Assembly (NCBI GenBank): GCA_964023275.1
Contig: OZ029929.1
Span: forward strand, 11,163,983-11,227,982
Length of the DNA: 64,000 nucleotides
Reading direction: 5' to 3'
From: Norana najaformis
Lineage: Eukaryota > Annelida > Clitellata > Crassiclitellata > Hormogastridae
Below are positions 1,791 through 62,375 of the stretch, one piece after another. Under the pieces are notes generated by a model that did no database searches, was not told the origin of the DNA, and was given only the letters and a program-made list of their open reading frames with translations. The stretch's first letter is position 1. The number at the start of each line of letters is the position of its first letter. The position numbers were made by a program, and so were the translations under genes.

Positions 1791-2122
1791 TCTACATTAA
1801 TTAATTTTAATAGTTATTGATGTGTTAGAAGTTTATATTGTGTAATTTGCTTTAAAGTTCAGACCATCTTTTACTACAAAGGCTTCACAAGTCTGACTCA
1901 AATGAATAAATATAATGAACTGTTAAATTTCTTGTTCATTCGCTAGGCGTAGCATCGCCGATGTAGATGTTTCGCAATTTGAAACTAGTTCGCCCCGACC
2001 CAAATAAGAAAACCATGTTATAACCCTGAAGGTCAGTGTAATATGAGAAAAAATCGAATAATGTTCGGTTGTTGGTCACGGATCTCGCTTCATTTTAGTT
2101 AAAACGCAGCAATCTTGACACT

Positions 2123-28178: not shown

Positions 28179-31100
28179 AAACATCTAGCAACCCTGATCC
28201 TAGGCGACATCTACATCTAGGAGACATCTAGCAACCCTGACCATAGGAGTCATCTAGCAACCTTGACCCTAGGAGACATCTAGCAACCCTGACCATAGGA
28301 GACATCTAGCAACCTTGACCCTAGGAGACATCTAGCAACCCTGACCATAGGAGACATCTAGCAACCCTGACCATAGGAGACATCTAGCAACCCTGACCAT
28401 AGGAGACATCTAGCAACCTTGACCCTAGGAGACATCTACATCTAGGAGACATCTAGCAACCTTGAACCTAGGAGACATCTAGCAACCCTGACCATAGGAG
28501 ACATCTAGCAACCCTGACCATAGGAGACATCTAGCAACCTTGACCCTAGGAGACATCTAGCAACCCTGACCATAGGAGACATCTAGCAACCTTGACCCTA
28601 GGAGACATCTAGCAACCCTGACCCTAGGAGACATCTAGCAACCCTGACCATAGGAGACATCTAGCAACCCTGACCATAGGAGACATCTAGCAACCTTGAC
28701 CCTAGGAGACATCTAGCAACCCTGACCCTAGGAGACATCTCGCAACCCTGACCCTAGGAGACATCTAGCAACCCTGACCCTAGGAGACATCTAGCAACCC
28801 TGACCATAGGAGACATCTAGCAACCCTAACCCTAGGAGACATCTAGCAACCCTGACCCTAGGAGACATCTAGCAACCCTAACCCTAGGAGACATCTAGCA
28901 ACCCTGACCATAGGAGACATCTAGCAACCTTGACCCTAGGAGACATCTAGCAACCCTGACCCTAGGAGACATCTAGCAACCCTGACCATAGGAGACATCT
29001 AGCAACCCTAACCATAGGAGACATCTAGCAACCTTGACCCTAGGAGACATCTACATCTAGGAGACATCTAGCAACCTTGACCCTAGGAGACATCTAGCAA
29101 CCCTGACCATAGGAGACATCTAGCAACCTTGACCCTAGGAGACATCTAGCAACCCTGACCATAGGAGACATCTAGCAACCTTGACCCTAGGAGACATCTA
29201 GCAACCCTGACCCTAGGAGACATCTAGCAACCCTGACCATAGGAGACATCTAGCAACCCTGACCATAGGAGACATCTAGCAACCTTGACCCTAGGAGACA
29301 TCTAGCAACCCTGACCATAGGAGACATCTAGCAACCCTGACCATAGGAGACATCTAGCAACCTTGACCCTAGGAGACATCTAGCAACCCTGACCCTAGGA
29401 GACATCTAGCAACCCTGACCATAGGAGACATCTAGCAACCCTAACCCTAGGAGACATCTAGCAACCCTGACCCTAGGAGACATCTCGCAACCCTGACCCT
29501 AGGAGACATCTAGCAACCCTGACCATAGGAGACATCTAGCAACCCTAACCCTAGGAGACATCTAGCAACCCTGACCATAGGAGACATCTAGCAACCTTGA
29601 CCCTAGGAGACATCTAGCAACCCTGACCCTAGGAGACATCTAGCAACCCTGACCATAGGAGACATCTAGCAACCCTAACCATAGGAGACATCTAGCAACC
29701 CTGACCATAGGAGACATCTAGCAACCCTAACCATAGGAGACATCTAGCAACCTTGACCCTAGGAGACATCTAGCAACCCTGACCATAGGAGACATCTAGC
29801 AACCCTGACCATAGGAGACATCTAGCAACCTTGACCCTAGGAGACATCTAGCAACCCTGACCATAGGAGACATCTAGCAACCCTGACCATAGGAGACATC
29901 TAGCAACCTTGACCCTAGGAGACATCTAGCAACCCTGACCCTAGGAGACATCTAGCAACCCTGACCATAGGAGACATCTAGCAACCTTGACCCTAGGAGA
30001 CATCTAGCAACCCTGACCATAGGAGACATCTAGCAACCTTGACCCTAGGAGACATCTAGCAACCCTGACCATAGGAGACATCTAGCAACCCTGACCATAG
30101 GAGACATCTAGCAACCTTGACCCTAGGAGACATCTAGCAACCCTGACCATAGGAGACATCTAGCAACCTTGACCCTAGGAGACATCTAGCAACCCTGACC
30201 ATAGGAGACATCTAGCAACCCTGACCATAGGAGACATCTAGCAACCCTGACCATAGGAGACATCTAGCAACCTTGACCCTAGGAGACATCTACATCTAGG
30301 AGACATCTAGCAACCTTGAACCTAGGAGACATCTAGCAACCCTGACCATAGGAGACATCTAGCAACCCTGACCATAGGAGACATCTAGCAACCTTGACCC
30401 TAGGAGACATCTAGCAACCCTGACCATAGGAGACATCTAGCAACCTTGACCCTAGGAGACATCTAGCAACCCTGACCCTAGGAGACATCTAGCAACCCTG
30501 ACCATAGGAGACATCTAGCAACCCTGACCATAGGAGACATCTAGCAACCTTGACCCTAGGAGACATCTAGCAACCCTGACCCTAGGAGACATCTCGCAAC
30601 CCTGACCCTAGGAGACATCTAGCAACCCTGACCCTAGGAGACATCTAGCAACCCTGACCATAGGAGACATCTAGCAACCCTAACCCTAGGAGACATCTAG
30701 CAACCCTGACCCTAGGAGACATCTAGCAACCCTAACCCTAGGAGACATCTAGCAACCCTGACCATAGGAGACATCTAGCAACCTTGACCCTAGGAGACAT
30801 CTAGCAACCCTGACCCTAGGAGACATCTAGCAACCCTGACCATAGGAGACATCTAGCAACCCTAACCATAGGAGACATCTAGCAACCTTGACCCTAGGAG
30901 ACATCTACATCTAGGAGACATCTAGCAACCTTGACCCTAGGAGACATCTAGCAACCCTGACCATAGGAGACATCTAGCAACCTTGACCCTAGGAGACATC
31001 TAGCAACCCTGACCATAGGAGACATCTAGCAACCTTGACCCTAGGAGACATCTAGCAACCCTGACCCTAGGAGACATCTAGCAACCCTGACCATAGGAGA

Positions 31101-34100
31101 CATCTAGCAACCCTGACCATAGGAGACATCTAGCAACCTTGACCCTAGGAGACATCTAGCAACCCTGACCATAGGAGACATCTAGCAACCCTGACCATAG
31201 GAGACATCTAGCAACCTTGACCCTAGGAGACATCTAGCAACCCTGACCCTAGGAGACATCTAGCAACCCTGACCATAGGAGACATCTAGCAACCCTAACC
31301 CTAGGAGACATCTAGCAACCCTGACCCTAGGAGACATCTCGCAACCCTGACCCTAGGAGACATCTAGCAACCCTGACCCTAGGAGACATCTAGCAACCCT
31401 GACCATAGGAGACATCTAGCAACCCTAACCCTAGGAGACATCTAGCAACCCTGACCATAGGAGACATCTAGCAACCTTGACCCTAGGAGACATCTAGCAA
31501 CCCTGACCCTAGGAGACATCTAGCAACCCTGACCATAGGAGACATCTAGCAACCTTGACCCTAGGAGACATCTAGCAACCCTGACCCTAGGAGACATCTA
31601 GCAACCCTGACCATAGGAGACATCTAGCAACCCTAACCATAGGAGACATCTAGCAACCTTGACCCTAGGAGACATCTACATCTAGGAGACATCTAGCAAC
31701 CTTGACCCTAGGAGACATCTAGCAACCCTGACCATAGGAGACATCTAGCAACCTTGACCCTAGGAGACATCTAGCAACCCTGACCATAGGAGACATCTAG
31801 CAACCTTGACCCTAGGAGACATCTAGCAACCCTGACCCTAGGAGACATCTAGCAACCCTGACCATAGGAGACATCTAGCAACCCTGACCATAGGAGACAT
31901 CTAGCAACCTTGACCCTAGGAGACATCTAGCAACCCTGACCATAGGAGACATCTAGCAACCCTGACCATAGGAGACATCTAGCAACCTTGACCCTAGGAG
32001 ACATCTAGCAACCCTGATCCTAGGAGACATCTAGCAACCCTGACCATAGGAGACATCTAGCAACCCTAACCCTAGGAGACATCTAGCAACCCTGACCCTA
32101 GGAGACATCTCGCAACCCTGACCCTAGGAGACATCTAGCAACCCTGACCATAGGAGACATCTAGCAACCCTAACCCTAGGAGACATCTAGCAACCCTGAC
32201 CATAGGAGACATCTAGCAACCTTGACCCTAGGAGACATCTAGCAACCCTGACCCTAGGAGACATCTAGCAACCCTGACCATAGGAGACATCTAGCAACCC
32301 TAACCATAGGAGACATCTAGCAACCCTGACCATAGGAGACATCTAGCAACCCTAACCATAGGAGACATCTAGCAACCTTGACCCTAGGAGACATCTAGCA
32401 ACCCTGACCATAGGAGACATCTAGCAACCCTGACCATAGGAGACATCTAGCAACCTTGACCCTAGGAGACATCTAGCAACCCTGACCATAGGAGACATCT
32501 AGCAACCCTGACCATAGGAGACATCTAGCAACCTTGACCCTAGGAGACATCTAGCAACCCTGACCCTAGGAGACATCTAGCAACCCTGACCATAGGAGAC
32601 ATCTAGCAACCTTGACCCTAGGAGACATCTAGCAACCCTGACCATAGGAGACATCTAGCAACCTTGACCCTAGGAGACATCTAGCAACCCTGACCATAGG
32701 AGACATCTAGCAACCCTGACCATAGGAGACATCTAGCAACCTTGACCCTAGGAGACATCTAGCAACCCTGACCATAGGAGACATCTAGCAACCTTGACCC
32801 TAGGAGACATCTAGCAACCCTGACCATAGGAGACATCTAGCAACCCTGACCATAGGAGACATCTAGCAACCCTGACCATAGGAGACATCTAGCAACCTTG
32901 ACCCTAGGAGACATCTACATCTAGGAGACATCTAGCAACCTTGAACCTAGGAGACATCTAGCAACCCTGACCATAGGAGACATCTAGCAACCCTGACCAT
33001 AGGAGACATCTAGCAACCTTGACCCTAGGAGACATCTAGCAACCCTGACCATAGGAGACATCTAGCAACCTTGACCCTAGGAGACATCTAGCAACCCTGA
33101 CCCTAGGAGACATCTAGCAACCCTGACCATAGGAGACATCTAGCAACCCTGACCATAGGAGACATCTAGCAACCTTGACCCTAGGAGACATCTAGCAACC
33201 CTGACCCTAGGAGACATCTCGCAACCCTGACCCTAGGAGACATCTAGCAACCCTGACCCTAGGAGACATCTAGCAACCCTGACCATAGGAGACATCTAGC
33301 AACCCTAACCCTAGGAGACATCTAGCAACCCTGACCCTAGGAGACATCTAGCAACCCTAACCCTAGGAGACATCTAGCAACCCTGACCATAGGAGACATC
33401 TAGCAACCTTGACCCTAGGAGACATCTAGCAACCCTGACCCTAGGAGACATCTAGCAACCCTGACCATAGGAGACATCTAGCAACCCTAACCATAGGAGA
33501 CATCTAGCAACCTTGACCCTAGGAGACATCTACATCTAGGAGACATCTAGCAACCTTGACCCTAGGAGACATCTAGCAACCCTGACCATAGGAGACATCT
33601 AGCAACCTTGACCCTAGGAGACATCTAGCAACCCTGACCATAGGAGACATCTAGCAACCTTGACCCTAGGAGACATCTAGCAACCCTGACCCTAGGAGAC
33701 ATCTAGCAACCCTGACCATAGGAGACATCTAGCAACCCTGACCATAGGAGACATCTAGCAACCTTGACCCTAGGAGACATCTAGCAACCCTGACCATAGG
33801 AGACATCTAGCAACCCTGACCATAGGAGACATCTAGCAACCTTGACCCTAGGAGACATCTAGCAACCCTGACCCTAGGAGACATCTAGCAACCCTGACCA
33901 TAGGAGACATCTAGCAACCCTAACCCTAGGAGACATCTAGCAACCCTGACCCTAGGAGACATCTCGCAACCCTGACCCTAGGAGACATCTAGCAACCCTG
34001 ACCCTAGGAGACATCTAGCAACCCTGACCATAGGAGACATCTAGCAACCCTAACCCTAGGAGACATCTAGCAACCCTGACCATAGGAGACATCTAGCAAC

Positions 34101-35699
34101 CTTGACCCTAGGAGACATCTAGCAACCCTGACCCTAGGAGACATCTAGCAACCCTGACCATAGGAGACATCTAGCAACCCTAACCATAGGAGACATCTAG
34201 CAACCCTGACCATAGGAGACATCTAGCAACCCTAACCATAGGAGACATCTAGCAACCTTGACCCTAGGAGACATCTAGCAACCCTGACCATAGGAGACAT
34301 CTAGCAACCCTGACCATAGGAGACATCTAGCAACCTTGACCCTAGGAGACATCTAGCAACCCTGACCATAGGAGACATCTAGCAACCCTGACCATAGGAG
34401 ACATCTAGCAACCTTGACCCTAGGAGACATCTAGCAACCCTGACCCTAGGAGACATCTAGCAACCCTGACCATAGGAGACATCTAGCAACCCTAACCCTA
34501 GGAGACATCTAGCAACCCTGACCCTAGGAGACATCTAGCAACCCTGACTATAGGAGACATCTAGCAACCCTGACCATAGGAGACATCTAGCAACCTTGAC
34601 CCTAGGAGACATCTAGCAACCCTGACCCTAGGAGACATCTAGCAACCCTGACCATAGGAGACATCTAGCAACCCTAACCCTAGGAGACATCTAGCAACCC
34701 TGACCCTAGGAGACATCTCGCAACCCTGACCCTAGGAGACATCTAGCAACCCTGACCCTAGGAGACATCTAGCAACCCTGACCATAGGAGACATCTAGCA
34801 ACCCTAACCCTAGGAGACATCTAGCAACCCTGACCCTAGGAGACATCTAGCAACCCTAACCCTAGGAGACATCTAGCAACCCTGACCATAGGAGACATCT
34901 AGCAACCTTGACCCTAGGAGACATCTAGCAACCCTGACCCTAGGAGACATCTAGCAACCCTGACCATAGGAGACATCTAGCAACCCTAACCATAGGAGAC
35001 ATCTAGCAACCTTGACCCTAGGAGACATCTACATCTAGGAGACATCTAGCAACCTTGACCCTAGGAGACATCTAGCAACCCTGACCATAGGAGACATCTA
35101 GCAACCCTGACCATAGGAGACATCTAGCAACCTTGACCCTAGGAGACATCTAGCAACCCTGACCATAGGAGACATCTAGCAACCCTGACCATAGGAGACA
35201 TCTAGCAACCCTGACCCTAGGAGACATCTAGCAACCCTGACCATAGGAGACATCTAGCAACCCTAACCCTAGGAGACATCTAGCAACCCTGACCCTAGGA
35301 GACATCTAGCAACCCTGACTATAGGAGACATCTAGCAACCCTGACCATAGGAGACATCTAGCAACCTTGACCCTAGGAGACATCTAGCAACCCTGACCAT
35401 AGGAGACATCTAGCAACCCTGACCATAGGAGACATCTAGCAACCCTAACCCTAGGAGACATCTAGCAACCCTGACCCTAGGAAACATCTAGCAACTCTGA
35501 CCCTAGGAGACATCTAGGAGACATCTAGCAACCCTGACCCTAGGAGACATCTAGCAACCCTAACACTAGGAGACATCTAGCAACCCTGACCATAGGAGAC
35601 ATCTAGCAACCCTGACCATAGGAGACATCTAGCAACCCTGACCCTAGGAGACATCTAGCAACCCTGACCCTAGGAAACATCTAGCAACTCTGACCCTGG
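28179..35699 (+). repeat. 26-bp satellite array, about 7.5 kb, with higher-order structure
   Basis: About 289 tandem copies of a 26-base unit: constant part AGGAGACATCTAGCAACC plus an 8-base variable part following YTRACCMT (for example CTGACCAT, TTGACCCT, CTAACCCT). A 17-base short unit (AGGAGACATCTACATCT) recurs at about 28431, 29046, 30285, 30900, 31671, 32910, 33525 and 35024. Distances are 615, 1239, 615, 771, 1239, 615 and 1499, each an exact multiple of 26 plus 17. A second marker (TCTCGC instead of TCTAGC) and a third (TTGAACCT at 28462, 30316, 32941) show the same periods. Units diverge at both edges. No open frame crosses the array. Confidence 0.98.
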
Positions 35700-35990: not shown

Positions 35991-36093
35991 AAATCTTCAC
36001 ATACATATATACATACATACATACATTAACACATACATACATTCATACATACCGTGTCGCATCAGTGGTTCAGCGACTTCAGCATAGAAGGGG

Positions 36094-36262
36094 TAAAGTG
36101 TAAATGTACACGTTTTTCCACAGCGACCGTATGGCCTTGACCCTTGACCCTGCTCATTTTTCAGTGAATTTATAAGGTGAAAATTAGCTGCCCGCTGTAA
36201 TGGGTGCCACGCCATTTAAGATCCCCACGTACGAACCGTGCTAGATCGAGATTCAAATCTCT
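36094..36262 (-). repeat. SINE family B copy
   Basis: Reverse complement shows the AGATTTGAATCTCG head remnant, ACGGTTCGTACGTGGGGATC and the CTGTGGAAAAACGTGTACA 3' end. A short (ACAT)n run precedes it. Confidence 0.75.
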
Positions 36263-36584
36263 TAAATGATCCACGACCGGTATGGGAACCGGTATATTTA
36301 CGCCCAGAGGCCCCTAGATGAATACGCTTTAACAAATAATTCTATCTAATGAGGCCAACATATCAAACCAACGCCTCCGCCTCTAAGGAATTTTGTTGAT
36401 GTAAACGAGTGTAATAAACCTTAAGGCGACTGACAGCTTTATTTTCTTCTTTGAAGAATGCATTCATACGTAGAGCTTTTCAATAGTAAGAAACAAACAA
36501 TTTTTGAACCACTTTGAACCCTCGTTTAGATTAGGCGCTGCAGACATCTCGAGTTTACTATTACGACTGTGTTATTAGGCGCTG

Positions 36585-36812
36585 GCTAATGGTTACAATG
36601 CTGGATAGTCAGTCCAGGAGTCAGAGATTCGGTTCCCAGCCAATCAAGACGACGATTTCTCCGAACTGTTTTTGCAATATCTATGCAGCTTGGAAATTTC
36701 CTGCACTAGTGCACTCTAGCGAACTTGGTTATAAGCTATAAACAACAGATGAAAACTCGAATAAAAGAAAGGTCGAAGACTGGCCACCTGCCCTCGTATG
36801 TTTAAAAAATGA
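36585..36812 (+). repeat. SINE family D copy
   Basis: tRNA-like head TGGCTAATGGTTACAATGC with B-box-like GAGATTCGGTTCCC, and a 3' part with GACTGGCCACCTGCCCT as at 24580. Confidence 0.6.
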
Positions 36813-38249
36813 ATTTGCTTACACATGGTAAACTAGGATGCATTTCGGTTTAACAATTATTTACGTTGCGTTAATTACGTACTTCTATTACAAGGCATAT
36901 GAGGTAAAGCTCTTTAGACAGGGGCAGTTCTTACCAACCATCCAGATCTTTACGATCAGCTGCAGAAAGCCGTTTATCTCTCTTTAGCATCAGCTAGGCC
37001 CAGCCTGAATTTCTCTAGGCGAATTCAGCGATTCTGCACCAGCTATCTGGAATAGACACATTGTTTACATTGCTCACAACAATATGTCGCTAGACACATT
37101 CATAACGACCTATTTGTACCGTCTTGTTTTTGTTGCCTGACCGTCGTGACCCACCCGCGCCTACGATTCCACGCTCATCTGATGGACATGTGCGTGTCAA
37201 CAAATGCATTACTTACTTACTTGGTGGTCTTGTTGTCACGTGATACACATAAACTTATGACGTAAGGGTTCATTGCCATGCGGATCCGCGTAGGTGAAAA
37301 AGTCCGAAGAAGTTAAATGTCGCTTGTCGTTGTAAGCGGGGATGGCTGTTATGTTTCACGCTACGGTAAGGGTATGCCGACTCATTTTTGCAAATCCTGT
37401 TACCGGTAATTATACCATCGGCTGTTCTTTAATCGAATGTGCGTCTATGTCGCCCAAATGTTCCGTTTCGGGGCGGTTTTCTTATCCGAACTTCCTTCGT
37501 GTTTGACTTGGTTTGACCCGCTAAGGGCTAAGTTCACGTTAGACAGATAGGGATATCATGGCTGCCCCTTGCCCTCCCGATGGAACATATAACTGAAACA
37601 GACAGGAGTTCGGTCTTTCTTTCGGGTGAAATCGTATCGACTGTGGTAGAAAGCTGCCATAACCTAACAGTTGGAACAAGTTGCGTCTTGTATAAGCAAT
37701 TAAATTAGAAAACTGATTAACGACGCAAGTTGGCCGCTGTGTCACGTATCACGTTTTGAAAGGTCTGCTGTAATATCCATTTACATTTCCGTGATGTGGA
37801 TATGCATTACGGTTTTGTAGATGTGTAGCTGTGTAGATAAATTTTATAGGCATTTGCTTTCGTAATTTCCAGATCACTGACATCGCTGCGAACTGAGGGA
37901 GTTTCTATCTCGGGCATTTGGATTTCTTAGCTGTAAGTCGTTATTTTTTCTAATGTAATGAGTTCTGTAGTGTCGTGAACAATTGTTCACATGTGTGTGG
38001 CTAAAACAAATTACCAGTTTCTTGGGATGTCCTGGATTTGATCCCCGAATGCAGAAGTGGAATGCAACAGGGTTAATGAATCATGCTGTGTAGAAAAATT
38101 AAACAAATCCAAAGTATTGTGTTAGTTTCTCCTCTCTTTCTCACAGTATTTGTCCTGCCATGATGCCCTGTCATGCTTCTTTCTCTGCCTTGCTTTCATT
38201 GTCCCCGTTTCCTCCTTCCTTCCTGTTCTGGATCACCCCCTCTTTTCCG
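36813..38249. other. No coding exon recognised; possible 5' non-coding exon
   Basis: No family similarity in any frame. Around 37340-37375 a sequence ending CACGCTACG before GTAAGGG has the look of a splice donor and could close a 5' non-coding exon of the downstream phosphatase gene; this is a guess. Confidence 0.25.
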
Positions 38250-38462
38250 CTAAGGCGCCTCTGTGGGTGAGGATGCTGGTTCGCATTCTGATCATGGCTA
38301 ATCTTAGAGGTTCGAATCTCATGCTAGCACAGTTTGTGCACAGGGACGTTAAATGGCATGGCCCTCATTCAAAGAGGCAGTGATGGTGAAGGATCTCAGC
38401 TGATAAATTCATTGAAAAATGAGCAGGGTCAAGGCCATGAGGTCACTGTAGAAAACCGTGTA
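38250..38462 (+). repeat. SINE family B copy with tRNA-like head
   Basis: The fullest copy: CGCCTCTGTGGGTGAGGATG, a B-box-like GAGGTTCGAATCTC at 38308-38321, then the core and the CACTGTAGAAAACCGTGTAC end. 38463-39120 after it holds no recognisable gene. Confidence 0.8.
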
Positions 38463-39135
38463 CAGTTTGCTTTCATTTTCCTCTACATACATTCCTCCAG
38501 CGTTTATGACATGTATCGCTTCCGCTGCACCATTTTCATTGATGCCTGCTTTCCTTCGTTACCTTTGTACCTCTGTTTTCCCCCTTTTTCCACCTAGTAA
38601 CCCTCCATCTGTCTCTCTCAGTCTTTCTATGTGAATTTTTTCCCTCTACATTTTGTCAGTCCAGTCTCCACCAGTCTACCCATCTTTTTCATTCATCAGT
38701 TGTGGTGATTGTGGTCAGGCATTTGTATAGCACCGCTTCAAGGAAATTCTTCATAGGCACTGATAACAATCTATACTGTAGTTCATACATCCTATATCCA
38801 CCCCCATCCTTTATCCAACTATCCGTCCATACATCCATTCATACATCCATTAAACCATCCATCCGTCCATTCATTTATCCTAAAAGGATTCTGTCTGCAC
38901 AGACCTTTTTTCAAACTATTACTTCCTGATGCGTCAGTGACCTATTACTGCTCAATACCAACACATGAATTTATAGAAGTTTATAGTAACTTATCAAACT
39001 ACACACTCGCTGTGATATAAAACCCGGACGCTTGTCTGACCTACATTCATTTTGATAAGACAATTTTTTTATTGCAAATGAGTGAAAGTAAACAATTTGA
39101 GCACTTGGTGGTACCAGAGATTTTAATCTCGAGCG

Positions 39136-39252
39136 GGTAATCTCGGGCTAGCACGGGCCGTGCACTGGGACCTTACATGGCGTGTAGCGGTGGTGAAGGA
39201 TCTCACCCGATAGGGTCGAGGCCATACGGTCGCTATAGAAAACCGTGTACAA
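39136..39252 (+). repeat. SINE family B copy, internally deleted
   Basis: GCTAGCACGGGCCGTGCACT to CGCTATAGAAAACCGTGTAC, missing the CCCATTCAAACGGGC segment, as does the copy at 24078. Confidence 0.75.
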
Positions 39253-39289
39253 TTTATAGTTTTATCAGACATATGTATGTATGTATCTC

Positions 39290-39590
39290 TAAATTTGTAA
39301 AGCGCCTTTTAAGTAACTCACAAAGGCGCGGCAGCACGGCTACCTAACGGTCTCTAAATAGGAACGTCTTGAGACGGGCAGAAAATGTTTCTTGAGCTGT
39401 TGAACAGGCAAGGGATTTGATGTCTGGTGGAAGAGTGTTCCAGAGAGACGGCCCCACAGTGGAGAAGGCGCGGCCAGCCCGAGCAGACGTACGAGAACGC
39501 GGTACAATGAGTTGACCATGTGTCGCCGATCGTAGTCTCTTGTTACATTCTGTCTGAGATGGTATGAGTGTGGAAAGCAAGAGATGTAGT
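39290..39590 (-). pseudogene. LINE 3' end: reverse transcriptase C-terminus plus tail
   Basis: The - strand encodes RLRSATHGQLIVPRSRTSAR, then AFSTVGPSLWNTLPPDIKS and FSARLKTFLF, the hallmark C-terminus of CR1/L2/jockey-type non-LTR elements. The stop codon is followed by about 55 bases and the tail AAAGGCGCTTTACAAAT with an (ATAC)n run. 5' truncated. Confidence 0.85.
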
Positions 39591-39599
39591 TTGAGATTT

Positions 39600-41650
39600 A
39601 AGACACGTAATTGGATTGGCTAAGACGTCACACTTGAGCTATATTTAAAAACCGTGAAATTTAATCGGCGATCAGTGTTACAATTTAAATAGCTGTGTGC
39701 ATGGGAGCGAACTTCCCCTCCCCTTGAGTTGAAGCGCTGACGAAATACTTGCGGTGAACGTGTATGAACATGTACCCTATTAGAGACATTAGTTTCTAAT
39801 ATTTCGTTTTCCATGGTATGAAGCAAAACATGCCTTTATTGTGGCTGGTTTGGTTATTGGCGCAAATTGTCTAACAGGTCGTTACAGTCCACTCTTACCG
39901 TCCGTCACTTTGGTGTTCTAGTATTCAATACCGAATTGACTGGCAGGTTGTGTGGGCTGGTGTGAGGTGTGTACTTCTTTTAGACAGTTTGTGCTTGTGT
40001 CTCACTAGTGGCAGGCGTTACGCTTTGTCGAAATTGCGCGGATTCCGAGACGTTGACCCCCCACCCCGAGATAATGGCAGTCGCAGTTTGGGGGCCTCGT
40101 AGGCTTCTAAACTTTGCTTTGTAGTGTGTGCTCTGCAGCCTATTTATTATACGTGTGCTGTTGAATTGGCTGGTGATGAAAAGTGGCTAGGATCAGGAGG
40201 AGGAGGAGAAGAAGAAGGAGGAGGAGGAAGAGCAGAAGAAGGAGATGTGGAGTGTGTATCTTAGTGTGTCATTTCCCACGGACTGTTGCGCAAGACGGCT
40301 TTTGTGCGCAGAACAGTAACAGAAGTGGACTACGTATGTTGGAGAGGATTCTGAAGAATGACAGTGACTCATTGAGGCAAAGAGTAGGGCAGACAGACGT
40401 GACCAGACACGGAGACACTGAGACAGGCAAGAGAGAGAGAGAGAGAGAGACACACACACACATATAGACAGACAGGCTTGGCGTCGGTGACCTTGCTCCA
40501 CTTTGAGACTCAGTCAGTTGGTCGGGGTGGGATAGTCGTGAGGTTTCTTGTGCCCAAAAGCTCTCGTGGTTGTTCGCGGTAAGCTGCTGACAGGTGTGTA
40601 ATTCCCAAGTCTTTTCGTTCTACTTGTGGGATTACCCATTGTCGATAAACAGTGAACGTGGTACATGTTTGGATCGTTTAAAAAGGCTTGTATAGTATAT
40701 GAGAAGGTGTTTATCACCCTGAATGTCTTGGTCGTTAAAAGGGATAACCGACCCAAAGGGTTTGGGTTAGGTTGGGGTTTCTGTCTAAAGCTTGACTCTA
40801 TGTGGCAATGACTTTGTATCATTTGTAATGTATTTCTGTAACTACTGCTGTAACTAATAACTTTAAAAAAAAAGTAACGCGCAGCAGTAATGGATTACTT
40901 TAACGAGGTAATAATAATGCAGAAAATTAGTTACTTTGCATTACTTTGAAATTCTGAAATTTTGAAATTAGTTTGCATCAAATAAATTGCGCTTCAACTA
41001 TTGTTCGTAGTGCGAGCTTAGTTCAAGAAATGCTTTCGGTATTTGACACCTGAAAGAATTCGTCAAATTACTGAGCCAAACTGACAGAATGTGTTGCTAA
41101 AATTTAAACTTTGCTTGCTTTTGTGAAAAGTTCTTAGTATGGCTATCAACTGAACACAAAGTTTGAAAGAGGAAGTTGAGTACATGTGTACATCAGAACA
41201 TTAAACTTTGAACTTTGAACACTTTTATGTTCTCAGGCTGAATGAAAATATACCTAAAGCACAAAGTCTAGTTTCTCTTTATCTTTCTCATGAATTGCAT
41301 TGGTCCATTTTTGCAACTTACATTGTATTTTCAAATTAACACTGATATAGTATATCTGATTGATGGTGACCTGCCATTTATACCCAAAGTAGTGCTTTGC
41401 ACTAGGTTTTATAGGAAAAATGGTGGCTTCTTTATAACAGGTATAACTTTAGGTAATTCTCTGTTTTAACTGTTTCTGTTAATGGCTGAACCTATTACAT
41501 AAAAATAAAATTTAATAAAAGGACATACTTTATGACTCATCATCGTCATCAATTCCTGTTGCCAACCGTTTGGCAGCAATGGTGTGAATAAATGATTTAT
41601 TATTTCATTAATTCAGACATTTGTCAAATGAAGTGCTGTCCTTATGTTCA
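39600..41650. other. No gene recognised; simple repeats
   Basis: GAA/GGA-rich stretch at 40195-40245 and (GA)n(CA)n at 40430-40463. Short frames overlapping them are artefacts. Otherwise AT-rich unique-looking sequence. Confidence 0.4.
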
Positions 41651-54800: not shown

Positions 54801-55875
54801 TGTGTGTTTGGAGATCAGAACCTCATTGGGGTCGAGACCATAGGGTCCCTATAGAAAAACGTGTACCTGTACTATCTGGAATAGAGATGCTGGAATCCCA
54901 TGTTATGTGGTCAGTTTTCTATAATATTGCATGTCAGTGTCATGTATTATTGTAACCAAGATGTACAGTATCTGTTTATAGTACATTGAAGTTATGTAAT
55001 TGTAAGATGCTCTAAAGGCTGTATATCTGCCAACTTTTGAAAGGGAAAATTTGATGCACTTTGCAAACATGTACAGTACACGAATGCTTCATCAGATTAT
55101 GGATTATGCTGGGAAAATTGGATATGGTCTCAACCTGCATAGTCAAGTATACTGTCAATAATGCATGCTGCAAGACATCAGCAGAAACTTCATTCAAGAA
55201 GCAGGAGGCAGCAAGAAGTTACTATGAACTAAGGTTATGACCAGAGTTGTATGAAATTTTCTTCAAACTGCAGTATAGTTAGTAATATCTTAGTTTCCAT
55301 GTGATGTGAAATTGTGGGATTTCTCAGGAGCCAAAATCGTTGCAGTGCACCAATATTTGTAATTTTTTGTTTCTACATTGGTTGCTGCTTCAAACATTTC
55401 AGCACTTGAGCACTTTGTTGGGCTGTACATCTTCGCGACATACCTCGAGGAAACGGACTTCCTTGTCGACAAAGAGCGCACAAGTTACTACATTGATTTC
55501 TATGGTTCCTACTACATGGGAGTTGTCAGTTTCCTCTGCTCGATTGTCGCCGGGCTCGTCGTCTACTGTGACGATAGCATCTCTCGCGTTGTAAAACTGG
55601 AGCCTCCCAGGAGCAACGAGTGTACATATGAAGAATTTTATGCCAACAATGGGTACTACTACGACAGTGAGGATTTCAACGACTTTACAGTCTATAATGG
55701 CCAGTACATGCCTTATGGAAATGAATATCCGCATGATGCAAATAACCCAGTTGGTGATGATAATGTGGATTACACGGAACGTTTCTACGATTATCCGCGT
55801 CAGAGAGATCATGAATATGCAGCATGCAGCGACCTCTTCAACCAGCCAATTGTGGAGAGTGCAGAATACCAGTGA
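51853..55875 (+). CDS. Claudin/PMP22-like four-transmembrane protein, 3 exons
   Basis: Exons 51853-52168, 53128-53301 and 55403-55875 join in phases 1 and 1 to give 320 aa. An in-frame TAG nine bases before the ATG fixes the start. A basic N-terminal tail of about 45 residues precedes TM1 (AKIMILGVFSGLVCLTTPFW). The first extracellular loop has the family signature W (residue 67), GLW (81-83), Cys86 and Cys91. Then come TM2 (LCIGVALSIIGLGIL), TM3 (HRAAACVFGIS into LEHFVGLYIFATYL) and TM4 (MGVVSFLCSIVAGLVVYC). The tail of about 100 residues is rich in Tyr, Asp, Glu and Asn (YANNGYYYDSEDFNDF) and ends SAEYQ, without the usual claudin PDZ ligand. Such proteins act in cell junctions or as membrane-protein partners. 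An alternative acceptor at 53151/53152 keeps frame and removes 8 residues. A further small exon in the 2.1-kb intron 2 cannot be excluded. Confidence 0.82.
54143..54225 (-). pseudogene. LINE 3' end fragment in claudin-like intron 2
   Basis: The - strand encodes FALSGRVCLC then stop, and the tail TGGCGCTATATAAATTTAC with (AATTAC)n, the same 3' end as 43980-44165. A related tail (AAAGGCGCTATATAAAT) is at 54367-54383. Confidence 0.65.
54820..54868 (+). repeat. SINE family B fragment
   Basis: 3' part only: GGGTCGAGACCATAGGGTCC and CTATAGAAAAACGTGTAC, with the first G shared. Confidence 0.6.
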
Positions 55876-56510
55876 AATGAAATTGATATCATTTTGCACA
55901 GCATCTCAATTTTGGTAGAATTTAATGTACTTTTGCCAGCTACTTTTGCCTTTAACTTTTACCATTTCAAACTGGTACTGCTTTTGAAACTGGATGCCTA
56001 TTAAGCGGTTTTTCTTACTACTATGAACTTATTGGTAAATTTAGCTATTGTGAACCTTGTTGATGGCCCTTTGTTGGTTGGCCTTTTGCAGGCCAACAAA
56101 CAGTGGCATGTTGCAGTGGCATCTGCTTTGGTCAAGTGGAAATAGATAACACCATCTGAGATGTGCGGTGCTGTGCTACTTGGCTTTCTCACAAAGGGTG
56201 CTAGTCAAGACGTTTTCACTTGCAGACAGTTAAAACAACTACAGTACATGTTTCATGTTAACATTGGATTTATTGGAAAAAAATCGATGAAACTCTGTCC
56301 TGGTTATATTAAATGCTACAAAACGAGTCTGGTATGTGTTGCTACAAATGCCAACAGGAAGCCATATGCCGTTTTTCTAGGGATCACAACCTACAAAAAA
56401 AACAGTAAAGAAAGTCAGTTTTTCCACACCACTCCTTCAGATGTATTAATCTGGGAAAGTGATAAAAAATAACCAAAATATTTAAAAGGCACCAAATGGT
56501 ACATAATCCC

Positions 56511-56592
56511 AGATTTGCTCAGTACTTCTCAGAGGATAAGAGAGGAACATATCACTGCTTATTCAACTTCCATTGTTCATCATTGCAAATCT
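56511..56592 (-). ncRNA. Box C/D snoRNA, SNORD61-like (18S U1442), copy 1
   Basis: 82 nt. Terminal stem AGATTTGC/GCAAATCT (8 bp, perfect), C box ATGATGA (56577-56583), D box CTGA (56519-56522). The guide before box D, CCTCTGAGAAGT, pairs with 18S ACUUCUUAGAGG with one G-U pair. The fifth base from box D faces the U equivalent to human U1442. A 3' splice-site-like sequence lies 59 nt downstream. Confidence 0.8.
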
Positions 56593-56821
56593 GTTCAGCC
56601 CAAAAAACTTGAGCTTATCCTGTATCCTGAGCAAATGTATTCAAAATAGTCACAATTTCTAGGCAGAAGATATTACAGGCCAATTTATCCATGCCATTAA
56701 CTGAACCGGATGTAAAACAAACTGCATAGTGATAAATAGGGTATGGGTATTTTCAAATGCATCGTGGTAATCAGTAATAATACAATGCATTCCTAAAAAC
56801 CAGAAACACTGTTTTCATGCA

Positions 56822-56920
56822 GTCGTTTGCAAATTAGAACATTAAGTTGTGTAAAATCAAAGATTTTCATATATATGCTTGTCGTTTGCAAATTAGAACA
56901 TTAAGCTGTCAAGACTATAT
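56822..56920 (-). pseudogene. Partial snoRNA copy (SNORD27-like) without C box
   Basis: It repeats about 35 bases of the snoRNA at 56962-57035, including ATATATGCTTGTC, and is flanked by direct repeats of GTCGTTTGCAAATTAGAACA (56822 and 56881). Box C and the closing stem are absent. Confidence 0.65.
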
Positions 56921-56961
56921 TGTAGTTTACAACAGATTTGGATGTAAAACTGGTTAAAGTT

Positions 56962-57035
56962 GAGCTTTCAGATCAGTGTAAAATCAAAGATTTTCATATA
57001 TATGCTTGTCTTCACCTTCATTCATCATTAAGCTC
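56962..57035 (-). ncRNA. Box C/D snoRNA, SNORD27-like (18S A27), copy 1
   Basis: 74 nt. Stem GAGCTT/AAGCTC, C box ATGATGA (57022-57028), D box CTGA (56968-56971). Internal guide AGACAAGCATAT is complementary over 12 bases to the 18S 5' end (AUAUGCUUGUCU); D' is ATGA and the fifth base from it faces A27. The guide before box D (TTTGATTTTACACTGAT) has no target I recognise. Confidence 0.85.
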
Positions 57036-57215
57036 GTCTGAAATTGGACCAGGAACTTCGCCAGTAAAATGCAGAATTATATTTTTACAAAAAGAAAAAA
57101 TGCACAATAAGCATGCATCCTTTGTAAAGCAGTGTCCGACTAGTACGAGTCATTTGTGATCATAGCAAAACAATACTAATGTAACTAACAAGCTTTTTGA
57201 CTTTAAAAAACTTAC

Positions 57216-57391
57216 AATTCACCAACTGCTTCTTTGCCACAGCAACGATTGCCAAAACGGAATTTTACATCACATAGATATACATCTGTACATCTTTCTG
57301 CTAACAAAACAAAGCCAATTCTCAGTTACAACTGAAATCCCACTGGATTAGTTCTAGCATCTGCCACAGCACTTTGTAGCATTAAACAGTG
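57216..57391 (-). ncRNA. Candidate exon of the snoRNA host gene
   Basis: Bounded on the - strand by acceptor CCAATTTTTTGTAG and donor GAATT before GTAAGTTTT. The sequence has no sustained open frame. A second acceptor-like GTTTTGTTAG inside it could shorten the exon. Confidence 0.4.
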
Positions 57392-57453
57392 CTACAAAAA
57401 ATTGGTACAGTGGGAAACAGTTACCATGAAATGCTGGTCAACAAAATTAGTAC

Positions 57454-57529
57454 TCTGCTCAGAACTTCTTAGAGGATAAACACAGGAGAATTTCATCTTG
57501 AAATCAATCTCCATTCTCATCACTGCAGA
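57454..57529 (-). ncRNA. Box C/D snoRNA, SNORD61-like (18S U1442), copy 2
   Basis: 76 nt. Stem TCTGC/GCAGA, C box GTGATGA (57517-57523), D box CTGA (57459-57462), probable C' AGATGAA. The guide CCTCTAAGAAGTT pairs perfectly over 13 bases with 18S AACUUCUUAGAGG, and the fifth base from box D faces the U equivalent to human U1442. The acceptor at 57392 lies 61 nt downstream. Confidence 0.9.
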
Positions 57530-57648
57530 CTGTCAACGTGATCTTAAATAATGGTTGCTAAATACAGAAATATGAAAATGGAGCAATTCATTTATATGAG
57601 CACAAAAGCAATAGCACAATATACTTAATTCGATTGCTTCATAGCCCA

Positions 57649-57850
57649 AATTTTATTTAGAAAATAAATTGTTACATAAAATGACCCCAAAAAAGTAAAA
57701 AAATTGGAATCATCCTGTTGCTTACCAAAACCATTGTTTTTTTCCAGAATCTTTCTTCATCATGTTCTGCCAATAGCAAAAAACTTCCAATTTTTATTTA
57801 GAAAATAGACAGTTACATAAAACTACCGCAAAAGTAAAAAATTTGAATTT
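57649..57850 (-). repeat. Local duplication next to a snoRNA
   Basis: About 65 bases starting ATTTAGAAAATA and including GTTACATAAAA and AAGTAAAAAA occur at 57652 and again at 57793. The first copy is followed by a lone TCATCAT (57756-57762), which reads as an orphan C box on the - strand. This looks like a duplicated intron unit whose snoRNA has decayed. Confidence 0.6.
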
Positions 57851-57903
57851 TTTTGTTTAAATCAAAACCACTGTTTTTATCAAATCTTTTATTGTCAAAC
57901 AAT

Positions 57904-57976
57904 GAGCTCATCAGCTAAATTATAATCATGAAGACTTCATACATATGCTTGTCTATAAGAAATCATCATCGAGCTC
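57904..57976 (-). ncRNA. Box C/D snoRNA, SNORD27-like (18S A27), copy 2
   Basis: 73 nt. Stem GAGCTC/GAGCTC, C box ATGATGA (57963-57969), D box CTGA (57911-57914). Internal guide AGACAAGCATATG pairs over 13 bases with 18S CAUAUGCUUGUCU; D' is ATGA and the fifth base faces A27. The box D guide (ATTATAATTTAG) differs from that of copy 1 and has no target I recognise. Acceptor about 80 nt downstream. Confidence 0.9.
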
Positions 57977-58603
57977 GAAACAATTGACAGCCAATTTTAC
58001 TTGTACGTGCAGAACTTGGATCTTAACTGGTCTCCAATAAGGAGTTCTGGGCAACCTTGAAAAACAAGAGTTTTGTTTCCATCTAAGAATTACAGGTTAC
58101 AGTTCTAGGAGAACTCTTTTGGGGGCCTTGCCATTTCAATCATGCCCCAGGCCCAACCTGGTCCATAAAATGCAGCATTAGACTAATTTATTTTAGGCAT
58201 ATCCTGCATGTTATAAAAAATTATAATATAAATAATAATAATATTAATAATGACATGCCTCAATCGTTGCTGTTATTGGAGGATGCCACATGGCAGACCG
58301 AGAGTTGTCTGACCAGAAAAGGAATTGCAAGCATATCACCAGACTGAACACTGAATGGACATGGGCTCAGTAAAACACAGGGTAGTGTCACACTGACGCT
58401 AAGGCTGCATTCATCACACAAGTTTGGTTTCGATGAAATTGAAACAACTGTTTTGTCTGCATCTGCTCGACATCTAAAATGTAATAAATATAACACTAAA
58501 TTTAATACAGTGTAGGTACACTGCATCTCTCGAGTCAGTATTACTGCAGCAACTTGCACACAATCCTAAACAGCGGCACAGTACAGAGCCTTTAAGATAA
58601 ATG

Positions 58604-58737
58604 AATCTGCTCAGACATCCACATGGAGTTCTTTGCACAGTCTGTTACCTGGTGTTGGGGGTTCAGCTATAAAAAATAGCTCCAACACCAATATGGCAAC
58701 AATTCTGCAACAAAATTATTTTCGATCATTGCAGATT
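58604..58737 (-). ncRNA. Long C/D-like small RNA, family X, copy 1
   Basis: 134 nt. Stem AATCTGC/GCAGATT is perfect, D box CTGA (58611-58614), C box position reads ATGATCG, a weak match. It encloses a hairpin (GGTGTTGGAGCTAT paired with ATAGCT and CCAACACC with a small bulge). The guide before box D would be CTCCACATGGATGT; no rRNA target recognised. A probable acceptor is 60 nt downstream. Confidence 0.6.
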
Positions 58738-58859
58738 TGAGGTTTACTTAACAATGAAATATTTAGAAATGATTATAAATATACATTTAAAATACCACAA
58801 TTTCAATAAGCAGTTGAATTATATTAAATGCAAAAGCCAGATAAGAAGTGAACATCAGT

Positions 58860-58960
58860 ATGATCTGTAAAATCATGTAACATTAATATCCAAATTACAT
58901 AGTTTTTGCATTTGCAAATACACGCATATCTAAAAGAAATTACCATCAGGCTCAGAAATT
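58860..58960 (-). pseudogene. Decayed snoRNA copy
   Basis: 58920-58960 resembles the C-box end of the 57904-57976 snoRNA (GCATATCTAAAAGAAAT and CCATCAGGCTCAG against its CATCATCGAGCTCG), but both the C box and the stem are broken. Confidence 0.4.
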
Positions 58961-59394
58961 CAGTTCCAATTTTTGAGTCTTTAGAAAGATGTCAGTTATT
59001 AATGCTTCAGCTTTATCCATTACCTACACTGACATTGCCATGTCAGCAATGTCTGATTTTTGGGTAGACTTATTTTTAGGAACAGTTCTATACTGCAGGC
59101 CTGTTTGTATCTATGCCTCTATATCTTTGTTCAAAAGGCTACAAATAACCACTTTCTCATTTTGTCTTTCCATCCAAGACAAAGTAATTGCTTTACTAAC
59201 CATGAATGCTCAGCAGTTCGACTTTTAATGCTCTGACATGGATGTAAAGTTGGCTGCAGTTACTAAAACATAGTAACAGAGAACAATAAAATTTTCTTCC
59301 TTGAAAGACACAGCTAGGCTGTTGATAAAAAACCTTTGTCATAACAAACAATGCTCCAGCCACAGAACTGAACGCTGGCCAACCAGATTAGCAC

Positions 59395-59469
59395 CGAGCT
59401 CATCAGATAAATTTTTCCGCAACAGAGTTCAGATAATACATGCCAATTTAATCATCATCATCAAGCTCG
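59395..59469 (-). ncRNA. Box C/D snoRNA, SNORD45C-like (18S U172), copy 1
   Basis: 75 nt. Stem CGAGCT/AGCTCG, C box ATGATGA (59455-59461), D box CTGA (59403-59406), perfect D' CTGA (59429-59432). The D' guide GGCATGTATTA pairs over 11 bases with 18S UAAUACAUGCC, the fifth base facing the U equivalent to human U172. The D guide (GCGGAAAAATTTAT) has no recognised target. Acceptor TTTTTTATCAACAG about 75 nt downstream. Confidence 0.9.
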
Positions 59470-59701
59470 ATAACTGCACAAGATTTTGATCAGTGTAACA
59501 TAACAGTGCACTTTCTGCAGCACTTACACAAACAGACTCTGGAAAATTTTACAAAAACACATCAGCCATGAGACAGCAGGAATTAAAACGTTCAGCATTC
59601 CAGCCTTGCCACTCGAACACGGTAACCCTAAACTTTTAAACCTTCTAAATTATACACCAGTACACAACACTACTTACACGTACATTTAGTCTTATCTACT
59701 A

Positions 59702-59776
59702 CCGAACTTCTCAGAATAGGTTTTCCACAGATTATTCAGATAATACATGCCATTAAAAAACATCATTGAAGCTCGG
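59702..59776 (-). ncRNA. Box C/D snoRNA, SNORD45C-like (18S U172), copy 2
   Basis: 75 nt. Nine-base stem CCGAGCTTC/GAAGTTCGG with one G-U pair, C box ATGATGT (59760-59766), D box CTGA (59711-59714), D' CTGA (59736-59739). The D' guide is identical to copy 1 and keeps the U172 register. The D guide (GGAAAACCTATT) differs from copy 1. The last C-box base is changed. Confidence 0.85.
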
Positions 59777-60434
59777 CTGTAACCAAACGCTTTACATCGA
59801 CTTCCTTTAAATGCCGTTAAAAACTTAAAACAAGTGTTGCAGTCCCATGAGCCGTTCTAGTTTTCACTTAGAAACACAGTAGGGATACTTAAAGTATCGG
59901 GGACCGTTCCATTTTGGGCATGGCTTTCAGCCATTAAGCTTAGTTGCCGCTAAGATGAAAGTTTTCAAGCTAAACATTATTTGCAAAGATCAGTTAAGCA
60001 TTATTCAATATTTACAAAGCTGAACTAGGAATTAGAATCCATGTTTATTTACTTCGATCAGTGACGGGACACTTACAGAAGCCACGCCTATAATTAAAAT
60101 CACTGCAGTGGGTGACACAGAAAAGCAATGGCCAAAACAGAGCAGTCCCCGATACTATAAGTATGCCACTCAGTAAATAACTACAGAAATTTATTACATC
60201 CATCATCTCTGTGTCCTACGCAAGTGTTTTTAATGCCAGTTTTGCAATTGTAAAATATCTTTGGTGCCATTTCACCCACCAATGTCAAAACAGACAGGAC
60301 AATATACTAAGATTTTAACTAGAGTAAGCAATGATGTGGTTGGTCTGTCACGTAACATCATTTAATAAAATGTCCTTCTATAAGTAGCATAAAGCATGAC
60401 AATTACCCACAACCATTCACCATAACATTGTTAT

Positions 60435-60570
60435 GAATCTGCTCAGACATCCATGTGGAGTTCTTTGCACAGTCTGTTACCTGGTGTTGGGGGTTCAGCT
60501 ATAAACAATAGCGCCAACACCAATACGGCAACAATTATGCAATCTATGTGATTTCAATCATTGCAGATTC
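60435..60570 (-). ncRNA. Long C/D-like small RNA, family X, copy 2
   Basis: 136 nt. Stem GAATCTGC/GCAGATTC (8 bp, perfect), D box CTGA (60443-60446), C-box position ATGATTG. Internal hairpin GGTGTTGGCGCTATT with AATAGC/CCAACACC. Nearly identical to copy 1 around the D guide and hairpin, while the rest has diverged. Confidence 0.6.
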
Positions 60571-61050
60571 AGTGTTTTCCTTGCAGCATCCAAAAAGACT
60601 AAAGACTTAATTAATTTTTCAATCGATCCATGTGACAGAATAAACTGATCAAATCAAATTATAAATTCTATCAGTGATAAAATTACTTTGCTGTAAATAA
60701 ATGAAAATTTTTTTTTATTTTGCTAAAACTGTTATTTACCTTCACATGTTTACTTGTTGTGCAAATGGAGGCAGATCAGAGACGTTCACCACAGTCAAGG
60801 CTTTGCTACGTCATTCTGATCAGATCTTTCGGTCAATTCTAAGAAAAGAATTAAAATCTTAACCACTAATACTGCTTGGTAAAAAGTCATGCTACCCAAT
60901 GACACTAGATTACCCCAACAAACTGACAAGACTTCTATTACACACTGCATAAACTGCTATTTTTCTTTGTGGTGACAAAACAAAACGTAACGACTCACCA
61001 ATATTCCTCTGCATTATCATTCATAATTTCAAAAGTTTAATTATCTATTG

Positions 61051-61197
61051 CAAATCTACTGAGACGTCCATGAGGAGTTTTTCGCAGGGTTACCTGGTAC
61101 TGGGAGTTTGTTAGCTATTAAAAATAGCACCAATACCAAAATAGCAACATTTCAGCAACAGGCTTGTTTTCAATAATTAAAGATTTGACAATTAAAT
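61051..61197 (-). ncRNA. Long C/D-like small RNA, family X, copy 3 (diverged)
   Basis: 147 nt. Stem CAAATCT/AGATTTG is perfect although its sequence differs from copies 1-2. The hairpin is kept (GGTATTGGTGCTATT with AATAGCTAACA and CAGTACC), including a G-C to A-T change on both sides of the stem. The D box reads GTCTCAG rather than CTGA and the C box TTATTGA, so it may be inactive. Confidence 0.45.
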
Positions 61198-61663
61198 AAC
61201 AAGTTTTAATAACGTTCAATTATTGTACCCTTTTAGATCAAAGCAATTTTCAATTTTTAATCGAATTGCACTGAACATTTCCCGGCCACGTGGCAGCCCA
61301 ACTTAATGCATTTCACCAGATATTGTAACTTTACAATTACAACCAAGCTACAATAATCACATTACTAAATCTACAGTTTTGTTGTCTTATTTATAAGAAA
61401 CCCCACGTGGCGCTTCTACAAAGCAGTTACCCAAATTTAACCGCTTATGGTCACACTTTTAGACTATAACAGAAAGAATTTCCGAATAAGCATTTAAAAT
61501 TTTTGTCACTGCTAACTAACTTATAAACATTACATAATTTCAAAACGTTACAGAATGCTACTAGACTGCAAATGTTTTATGATAAATCAGCTTTTCACAA
61601 CGCCTTCTTACTTTTCACCGACCACCTTCTTCTGGAATGAACGAAATGAACGGATGCGGAAGT

Positions 61664-61904
61664 CGACCAGCCACGTGATCTAAGTAAGCTCTTGACTTTG
61701 TTCTTTGCTTGCATTCAGGTATATAGCTCTATATTAAATTATGCATTCATTCTGAGCATTTACATAACGCCCCTATAATTGTATACCCAGAGGATCTCCC
61801 CGCCCAGTCCCGGCGAATAAGAAGTTTTCAACTGTTGGTGAAAGGCGGATCTAGACACTCCTCGACCGCAGATCCAATCCCGATGCCTCTCCTTTCCTTA
61901 ATAT
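61664..61904. promoter_or_regulatory. Possible promoter region of the snoRNA host gene
   Basis: CACGTG E-box at 61672-61677, 60 bases upstream of the first donor on the - strand. A pyrimidine-led start such as CTTCCGC (about 61663-61657) would fit a 5' TOP-type transcript. This is inference from position. Confidence 0.3.
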
Positions 61905-62108
61905 CTATCTCACAGAGTCAATTCCAAACAGAATGGGTGATCACCTCAGCCGTCCGACAGCCTGCCTGTCCGACTCCTGGATCTCTACCTTAACCGAACC
62001 CTCCTTGCCTGTTGATTTTGTTTTAACTGCGCGCCTGTGAATAAGCTGGTTCTTATGCGACTTAGCTTTCGTTGGGCGCTGTAGAAATCTCGAGTTTACG
62101 ATTACGAT
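61905..62108 (+). repeat. SINE-like family A copy (left arm of an inverted pair)
   Basis: Body and tail as in other copies, ending CTCGAGTTTACGATTACGAT. Tail-to-tail with the next copy. Confidence 0.75.
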
Positions 62109-62129
62109 CTAGCATCCCTCACGTCAGCT

Positions 62130-62375
62130 TATGGTAATCGTAATCGTAATCCCAAGATTTCTACAGCGCCCAACGAAAGCCGCGCCGCGGGGACCAGCTT
62201 ATTCACAGGCGTTCAGTCAAAACAAAATCGATAGGCAAAAGGGTTCGGTTCCGGGTCAAGATCCAAGAGTCAGGCAGAGAGAGACAGCGTGGCAGCTACG
62301 GTGGGTGATGTTTGGGGCTGGAGAGCAGAGGAAGAAGGGGTGTTAGGATAGGATCTGTGGAAGAGGAATGTTTTC
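62130..62375 (-). repeat. SINE-like family A copy (right arm of an inverted pair)
   Basis: Starts with TAATCGTAATCGTAATCCCA on the + strand. With 61905-62108 it could fold into a hairpin of roughly 150-bp arms with a 20-base loop. 62376-63600 after it shows no recognisable gene. Confidence 0.75.

Follow-up and report, generated by a model that had tools for sequence, protein, structure and literature searches.

What does the minus strand encode between about 56 and 62 kb of a 64,000-nt stretch of contig OZ029929.1 from the annelid Norana najaformis (the window)? A preliminary description had proposed a host gene with six box C/D small nucleolar RNAs (snoRNAs), processed from the introns of one transcript. 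Our analysis, which also drew on the assembly (608,420,607 bases in 17 contigs), indicates that the minus strand from ~61.66 to 56.25 kb very probably forms a snoRNA host gene that encodes no protein. The snoRNA cluster is well supported, and its origin from one non-coding transcript less well. All six of the proposed segments exist, at 59.8–56.5 kb, and two each resemble SNORD45, SNORD27 and SNORD61:

59702..59776, minus strand: U45a, SNORD45-like C/D snoRNA with a D′ guide to U172 of 18S ribosomal RNA (rRNA)
59396..59469, minus strand: U45b, SNORD45-like C/D snoRNA with a D′ guide to 18S U172
57904..57977, minus strand: A27a, SNORD27-like C/D snoRNA with a D′ (ATGA) guide to 18S A27
57454..57529, minus strand: U61a, SNORD61-like C/D snoRNA with a D guide to 18S U1442
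56962..57035, minus strand: A27b, SNORD27-like C/D snoRNA with a D′ (ATGA) guide to 18S A27
56510..56593, minus strand: U61b, SNORD61-like C/D snoRNA with a D guide to 18S U1442

The C box (RTGATGA) is perfect in five of these copies and carries one change in U45a (ATGATGT). Every copy has a CTGA D box and a terminal stem of 5–11 pairs, G–T pairs counted. A strict scan of the host region (55.5–62.5 kb) for a box C with at most one change or with RTGAT intact, a CTGA box D and a terminal stem returned seven minus-strand sites at or above the threshold of 11, namely the six short copies and longB, a longer C/D-like RNA described below. At this threshold there were no sites on the plus strand of the host region and none on either strand of eight 7-kb control windows (0–56 kb). 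The relative of longB that we call longC was listed under the threshold, at 10.5. A laxer version of the scan has a background, which reaches 15.5 in one control window rich in repeats; relaxation added three further host sites scoring 7.0–9.5, which were discarded, the controls reaching the same scores. A strict two-hairpin scan, whose strictness limits the negative, found no H/ACA snoRNA on the plus or minus strand of the host region and one match in its two control windows, also of 7 kb.

To assign targets, guides were compared with human 18S rRNA (length 1869, human numbering throughout), 2316 nt of 28S fragments (an incomplete 28S), 5.8S, U1, U2, U4, U5 and U6. In each of the six copies, the base at position five upstream of D or D′ lies opposite the 18S nucleotide that had been proposed, which is U172 in two, A27 in two and U1442 in two, positions known to be 2′-O-methylated in human. 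The guide of the A27 copies adjoins a D′ box with one change (ATGA). Guide scores are 10.4–11.1, compared with a median of 7.8, a 95th centile of 9.9 and a 99th centile of 11.4 for the best scores of 150 random guides over all targets. Each of the six guides thus falls between the 95th and 99th centiles and none lies beyond the 99th, so the case rests on the six-fold agreement of guide with register and family. The D-position guides of the U45 copies score 6.5 and 7.2, under the random median. Three apparent second guides, each beyond the 95th centile, were taken as chance because many boxes were tried: a box-adjacent stretch of A27a at 57929 against a 28S fragment (10.1, four G–T pairs), one of U61a at 57507 against U2 (10.0, three G–T pairs) and a stretch at an inner CTGA of longC at 58666, inside its hairpin, against a 28S fragment (10.2, one mismatch).

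In Rfam, every copy has a match to the family expected from its guide, although only one of these matches exceeds the gathering score and the one at U45b is not the best there. That match, SNORD61 at 57455–57526 (U61a, 43.7 bits), is the sole one at gathering score in the window. The others, obtained in E-value mode and below gathering, are SNORD61 at 56515–56586 (U61b, 37.6 bits), SNORD45 at 59705–59771 (U45a, 35.0 bits) and 59408–59453 (U45b, 21.7 bits), and SNORD27 at 56964–57033 (A27b, 34.8 bits) and 57906–57974 (A27a, 33.0 bits). The copies resemble SNORD45, SNORD27 and SNORD61 (RF00279, RF00086 and RF00270) in boxes, length, guide sequence and register. Unlike SNORD27 and SNORD45, the A27 copies use ATGA as D′ and the U45 copies have no D-position guide.

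The two members of each pair are alike in body: identity is 57/79 for A27, 61/82 for U61 and 60/80 for U45, and none of 100 shuffles was as good in any of the three. Nine comparisons of flanking sequence, covering spacers and pieces from either side of the U45, A27/U61 and long copies, stayed at shuffle level (6 to 98 of 100 shuffles equally good; shuffles in both comparisons keep base composition only). Because the likeness is confined to the snoRNA body, it is the RNA body alone that has persisted. Together these results support the box C/D identity of the six RNAs, their three specificities and their pairing into paralogues. The two A27–U61 blocks have box C to box C spacings of 446 and 445 nt, as a duplication of the whole block might leave, but their inter-spacers are unlike (51 of 100 shuffles as good).

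Exact guide-plus-box patterns occur in the 608-Mb assembly at this locus and nowhere else: at two places each for U45 and U61, and at three for A27 (the two snoRNAs and a fragment). Reversed control patterns gave no match; exact patterns miss copies carrying other changes. A DNA search of the assembly with U61a found only itself and was blind to U61b, so it cannot show the absence of diverged copies, and a whole-genome search with RF00270 gave no match, which is uninformative because the 43.7-bit copy exists. The third A27 place is the following feature:

56822..56909, minus strand: A27b fragment, in which 35 nt (56849–56883) exactly repeat a piece of A27b

It is flanked by 29-nt direct repeats (56822–56850 and 56881–56909, 97% alike) and lacks a C/D pair closed by a stem. 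It is a duplication fragment, not a snoRNA, and its position between direct repeats resembles a recent insertion with a duplicated target site.

The proposed inventory of six snoRNAs was correct as far as it went, but it missed three C/D-like RNAs of ~137 nt, with a large inner hairpin, in the same gene:

61051..61187, minus strand: longA, diverged third copy with box C region AATTATTGA, box D CTCA and a 7-bp terminal stem
60433..60569, minus strand: longB, with C box ATGATTG, D box CTGA, a 9-bp terminal stem and a large inner hairpin
58601..58737, minus strand: longC, 90% identical to longB over 137 nt

Both longB and longC have the features of C/D RNAs, with RTGAT kept in the C box (two changes in the full seven), CTGA and terminal stems of 9 and 7 pairs, respectively. 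Having a CTCA box D and a changed C core, longA falls outside this definition and was missed by the strict scan. The folds of longC and longB are far more stable than those of shuffles (z of −5.54 and −4.83), which is not so for longA (−0.68 for a piece without the 3′ stem arm). An alignment of the three has 43 pairs, four of them with both bases changed in one or more of the sequences, and the covariation term is slightly unfavourable (+1.34 kcal/mol), so covariation support for the fold is small. No Rfam family matches longA–C at E up to 10, except for a 13.7-bit long non-coding RNA match overlapping the end of longA. As guides, the D-adjacent stretches of longB (6.5) and longC (6.8) fall below the random median with the incomplete 28S. 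Away from the boxes, an 11-nt match to U4 3–13 is common to longB and longC, and longA has one to U2 153–163, both in the conserved stem; we draw nothing from them. A DNA search of the assembly with longC found itself and longB only, longA being too diverged for that search. A covariance model built from the three recovered its source copies, with opposite-strand echoes of 18.8 and 16.9 bits.

In being bounded by C and D boxes that adjoin a terminal stem, with a structured interior, longB and longC resemble long C/D RNAs such as U8, U13 and U22. They and longA differ from these RNAs in lacking such an Rfam match at E up to 10, in their intron-like setting and in being present in three copies. 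We suggest, tentatively and with more doubt than conviction, that longA–C form a lineage-specific long C/D ribonucleoprotein family with a conserved inner hairpin and without a 2′-O-methylation guide, which would act in rRNA processing or on another RNA and would have been amplified alongside the 18S guides in their host gene. Because the RNAs tested yielded no D-adjacent guide, the better guess would be that they serve as chaperones or in processing. Two observations stand beside this family. The covariance model has a weak match outside the host gene at 8097–8192 on the minus strand (17.0 bits, E 0.27). Terminal stems at 56510–60569 on the minus strand are of two kinds: the A27 and U45 copies have GAGCT, and the U61 copies have CTGC or TTGC in common with longB and longC, a hint of common descent or of conversion between families.

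Are these nine RNAs released from one transcript? All nine lie on the minus strand of this single locus, ~300–1000 nt apart, and their order along the putative transcript, with the A27 fragment included, is longA, longB, U45a, U45b, longC, A27a, U61a, A27b, A27 fragment, U61b. Its ends may be marked by two sets of signals:

61614..61677, minus strand: putative 5′ end of the host, with CACGTG at 61672–61677 followed by a possible first exon ending GAAAA/GTAAGA near 61614
56250..56451, minus strand: putative 3′ end of the host, with a strong acceptor ending at 56451, a second acceptor at 56391 and AATAAA at 56274

The first-exon limits were set by eye, and the donor near 61614 is not among the donors scoring at least 7. 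Two further CACGTG motifs lie at 61404–61409 and 61287–61292; the window holds 12 where 9.5 are expected, and 3 of the 12 fall within 391 bases at the 5′ end of the host. The AATAAA is weak by itself because the stretch scanned holds eight. Acceptors were scored with a simple weight matrix. The proposal that most copies lie 55–80 nt upstream of good 3′ splice sites holds for half of them: acceptors scoring at least 3 are found in that range after D for U61a (67 nt, 5.7), U61b (68 nt, 11.0) and A27b (62 nt, 3.1), but not for the other three, where U45b (69 nt, 1.3) and U45a (69 nt, 0.1) have poor ones. The best acceptor lies 62–69 nt after D for U61a, U61b, A27b, longB and U45a, the second-best of longC at 67 nt, and the best of A27a, U45b and longA at 88–96 nt (A27a at 88 nt, U45b at 89 nt). 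The splice-site argument for intronic processing is weak. A single host transcript is likely on the indirect evidence of the shared strand, the E-boxes at the 5′ end and the absence of a Pfam match in three frames.

Several results weigh against a non-coding host of 18S guides. In 191 of 5000 sets, random anchors match the acceptor fit of the nine RNAs, and three of the eight donors scoring at least 7 sit inside the long RNAs. A 101-amino-acid open frame at 58260–58565 is the longest on the minus strand of the region. Five of the six short copies score under the Rfam gathering threshold, and the best family for U45b is snoZ221_snoR21b (23.5 bits), above SNORD45. On the target side, the 608-Mb assembly yielded no working 18S of the organism itself and no match to AACTTCTTAGAGGGAC, so the target sites rest on the human sequence. 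The only small-subunit rRNA match returned by a search of the assembly is a diverged, truncated 18S on contig C5 (L004:979–1800), which by eye carries an insertion at the A27 site. A search of bacterial and viral collections with a 28S stretch found nothing.

The modest splice evidence, the putative status of the exons and the 101-amino-acid frame would also fit genuine snoRNAs lodged between the short exons of a protein-coding gene, or spread over more than one transcript, and intronic snoRNAs occur in protein-coding and non-coding hosts alike (PMC13228274). We consider this arrangement unlikely. Pfam gave no match at E up to 1 in the three minus-strand frames of 56250–61663 (very short exons could escape), and a snoRNA-dense, frameless locus with one snoRNA per intron is the pattern described for Uhg genes (PMC4430873). 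Spacing of ~300–1000 nt would, with exons only putative, leave room for independently transcribed snoRNA genes with their own promoters. That they are so transcribed is very improbable, as all nine RNAs share a strand and the paralogue flanks share nothing detectable, so that no shared promoter element travels with the copies. It would also be a minority mode in flies, where host introns hold 95% of expressed snoRNAs and about 3% are intergenic (PMC13228274). Decay does occur at the locus, as the weakened boxes of longA and the plain fragment at 56822–56909 indicate. That the copies as a whole are non-functional remnants still resembling C/D RNAs is more improbable still, since boxes, guides and paired terminal stems persist in their bodies amid randomised flanks, and the assembly holds no other exact match to the guides.

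The non-coding host gene would then work as follows. RNA polymerase II would make a single transcript, and after splicing its debranched introns would be trimmed to box C/D RNAs, with the trimming limits set by protection from the terminal stems and the C/D protein core. The six short RNAs would guide fibrillarin to 2′-O-methylate U172, A27 and U1442 of 18S, and the three paralogous longer RNAs would be released in the same way. The two guides per 18S site would derive from duplication within the gene and would have been kept by selection on the snoRNA body.

The locus is most likely an ordinary non-coding snoRNA host of the kind represented by the Drosophila Uhg genes or the vertebrate SNHGs. 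As in vertebrate GAS5 and SNHG1 (UHG), several C/D snoRNAs lie in a putative non-coding host; in human, SNORD27 lies in SNHG1. Drosophila Uhg genes are non-coding and spliced, with one snoRNA in nearly every intron and up to 16 introns (PMC4430873). E-boxes occur at several Uhg promoters, as at the 5′ end here, and Myc is reported to bind at or near E-boxes in four of seven Uhg genes and at most vertebrate SNHG promoters (PMC4430873). This locus probably differs from the Uhg genes in combining duplicated guides for three 18S sites with long, unassigned C/D-like RNAs. The preliminary description had singled out the grouping of the three duplicated guides as different from human, which was overstated, since C/D duplicates within one host are common. 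Members of human C/D families lie mostly in one host gene (PMC8178906), intragenic duplication of snoRNAs predominates in chicken and has occurred within its gas5-like gene (PMC2653536), and snoRNA–host pairings drift across eukaryotes (PMC3511168). The chicken counterparts of U45A/C and of U61 are described there as lying apart, in RABGGTB and RBMX, respectively (PMC2653536), whereas the two families lie together here. A limited search of open-licence literature found no description of the SNORD45/27/61 trio in one host, which makes this at most a new arrangement of known parts and no surprise in kind.

The sequence around the host contains other features. Within the gene, 46-nt inverted repeats at 59882–59927 and 60122–60167 (83% complementary, 194 nt apart) may be the remains of a small DNA transposon. 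A large imperfect palindrome at 61966–62277, with arms of 85 nt and others of 44 nt inside it, lies immediately upstream of the putative promoter and is a fold-back element. A 170-amino-acid open frame on the plus strand (55363–55875), which has no Pfam match and faces the host's 3′ end, resembles by eye the last part of a gene for a membrane protein. Further away are plus-strand exons of an XK-related protein gene at 2099–4986 (PF09815 in three open frames) and a 7.5-kb satellite at 28217–35697 with a 26-bp unit (reported as a 52-bp unit, 93% matches); a Pfam search of the plus strand of 36000–41001 found nothing.

Conservation confined to the bodies of the paralogues points clearly to selection acting on RNAs carried in putative introns. 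The long C/D-like RNAs, assigned to no family, are a possible new orphan. With guides for three 18S sites together, in two copies each, the locus is a clear case of snoRNA–host drift outside the usual model animals, and because the guides occur by exact pattern nowhere else in the assembly, removal of this one locus would test three methylations at once.

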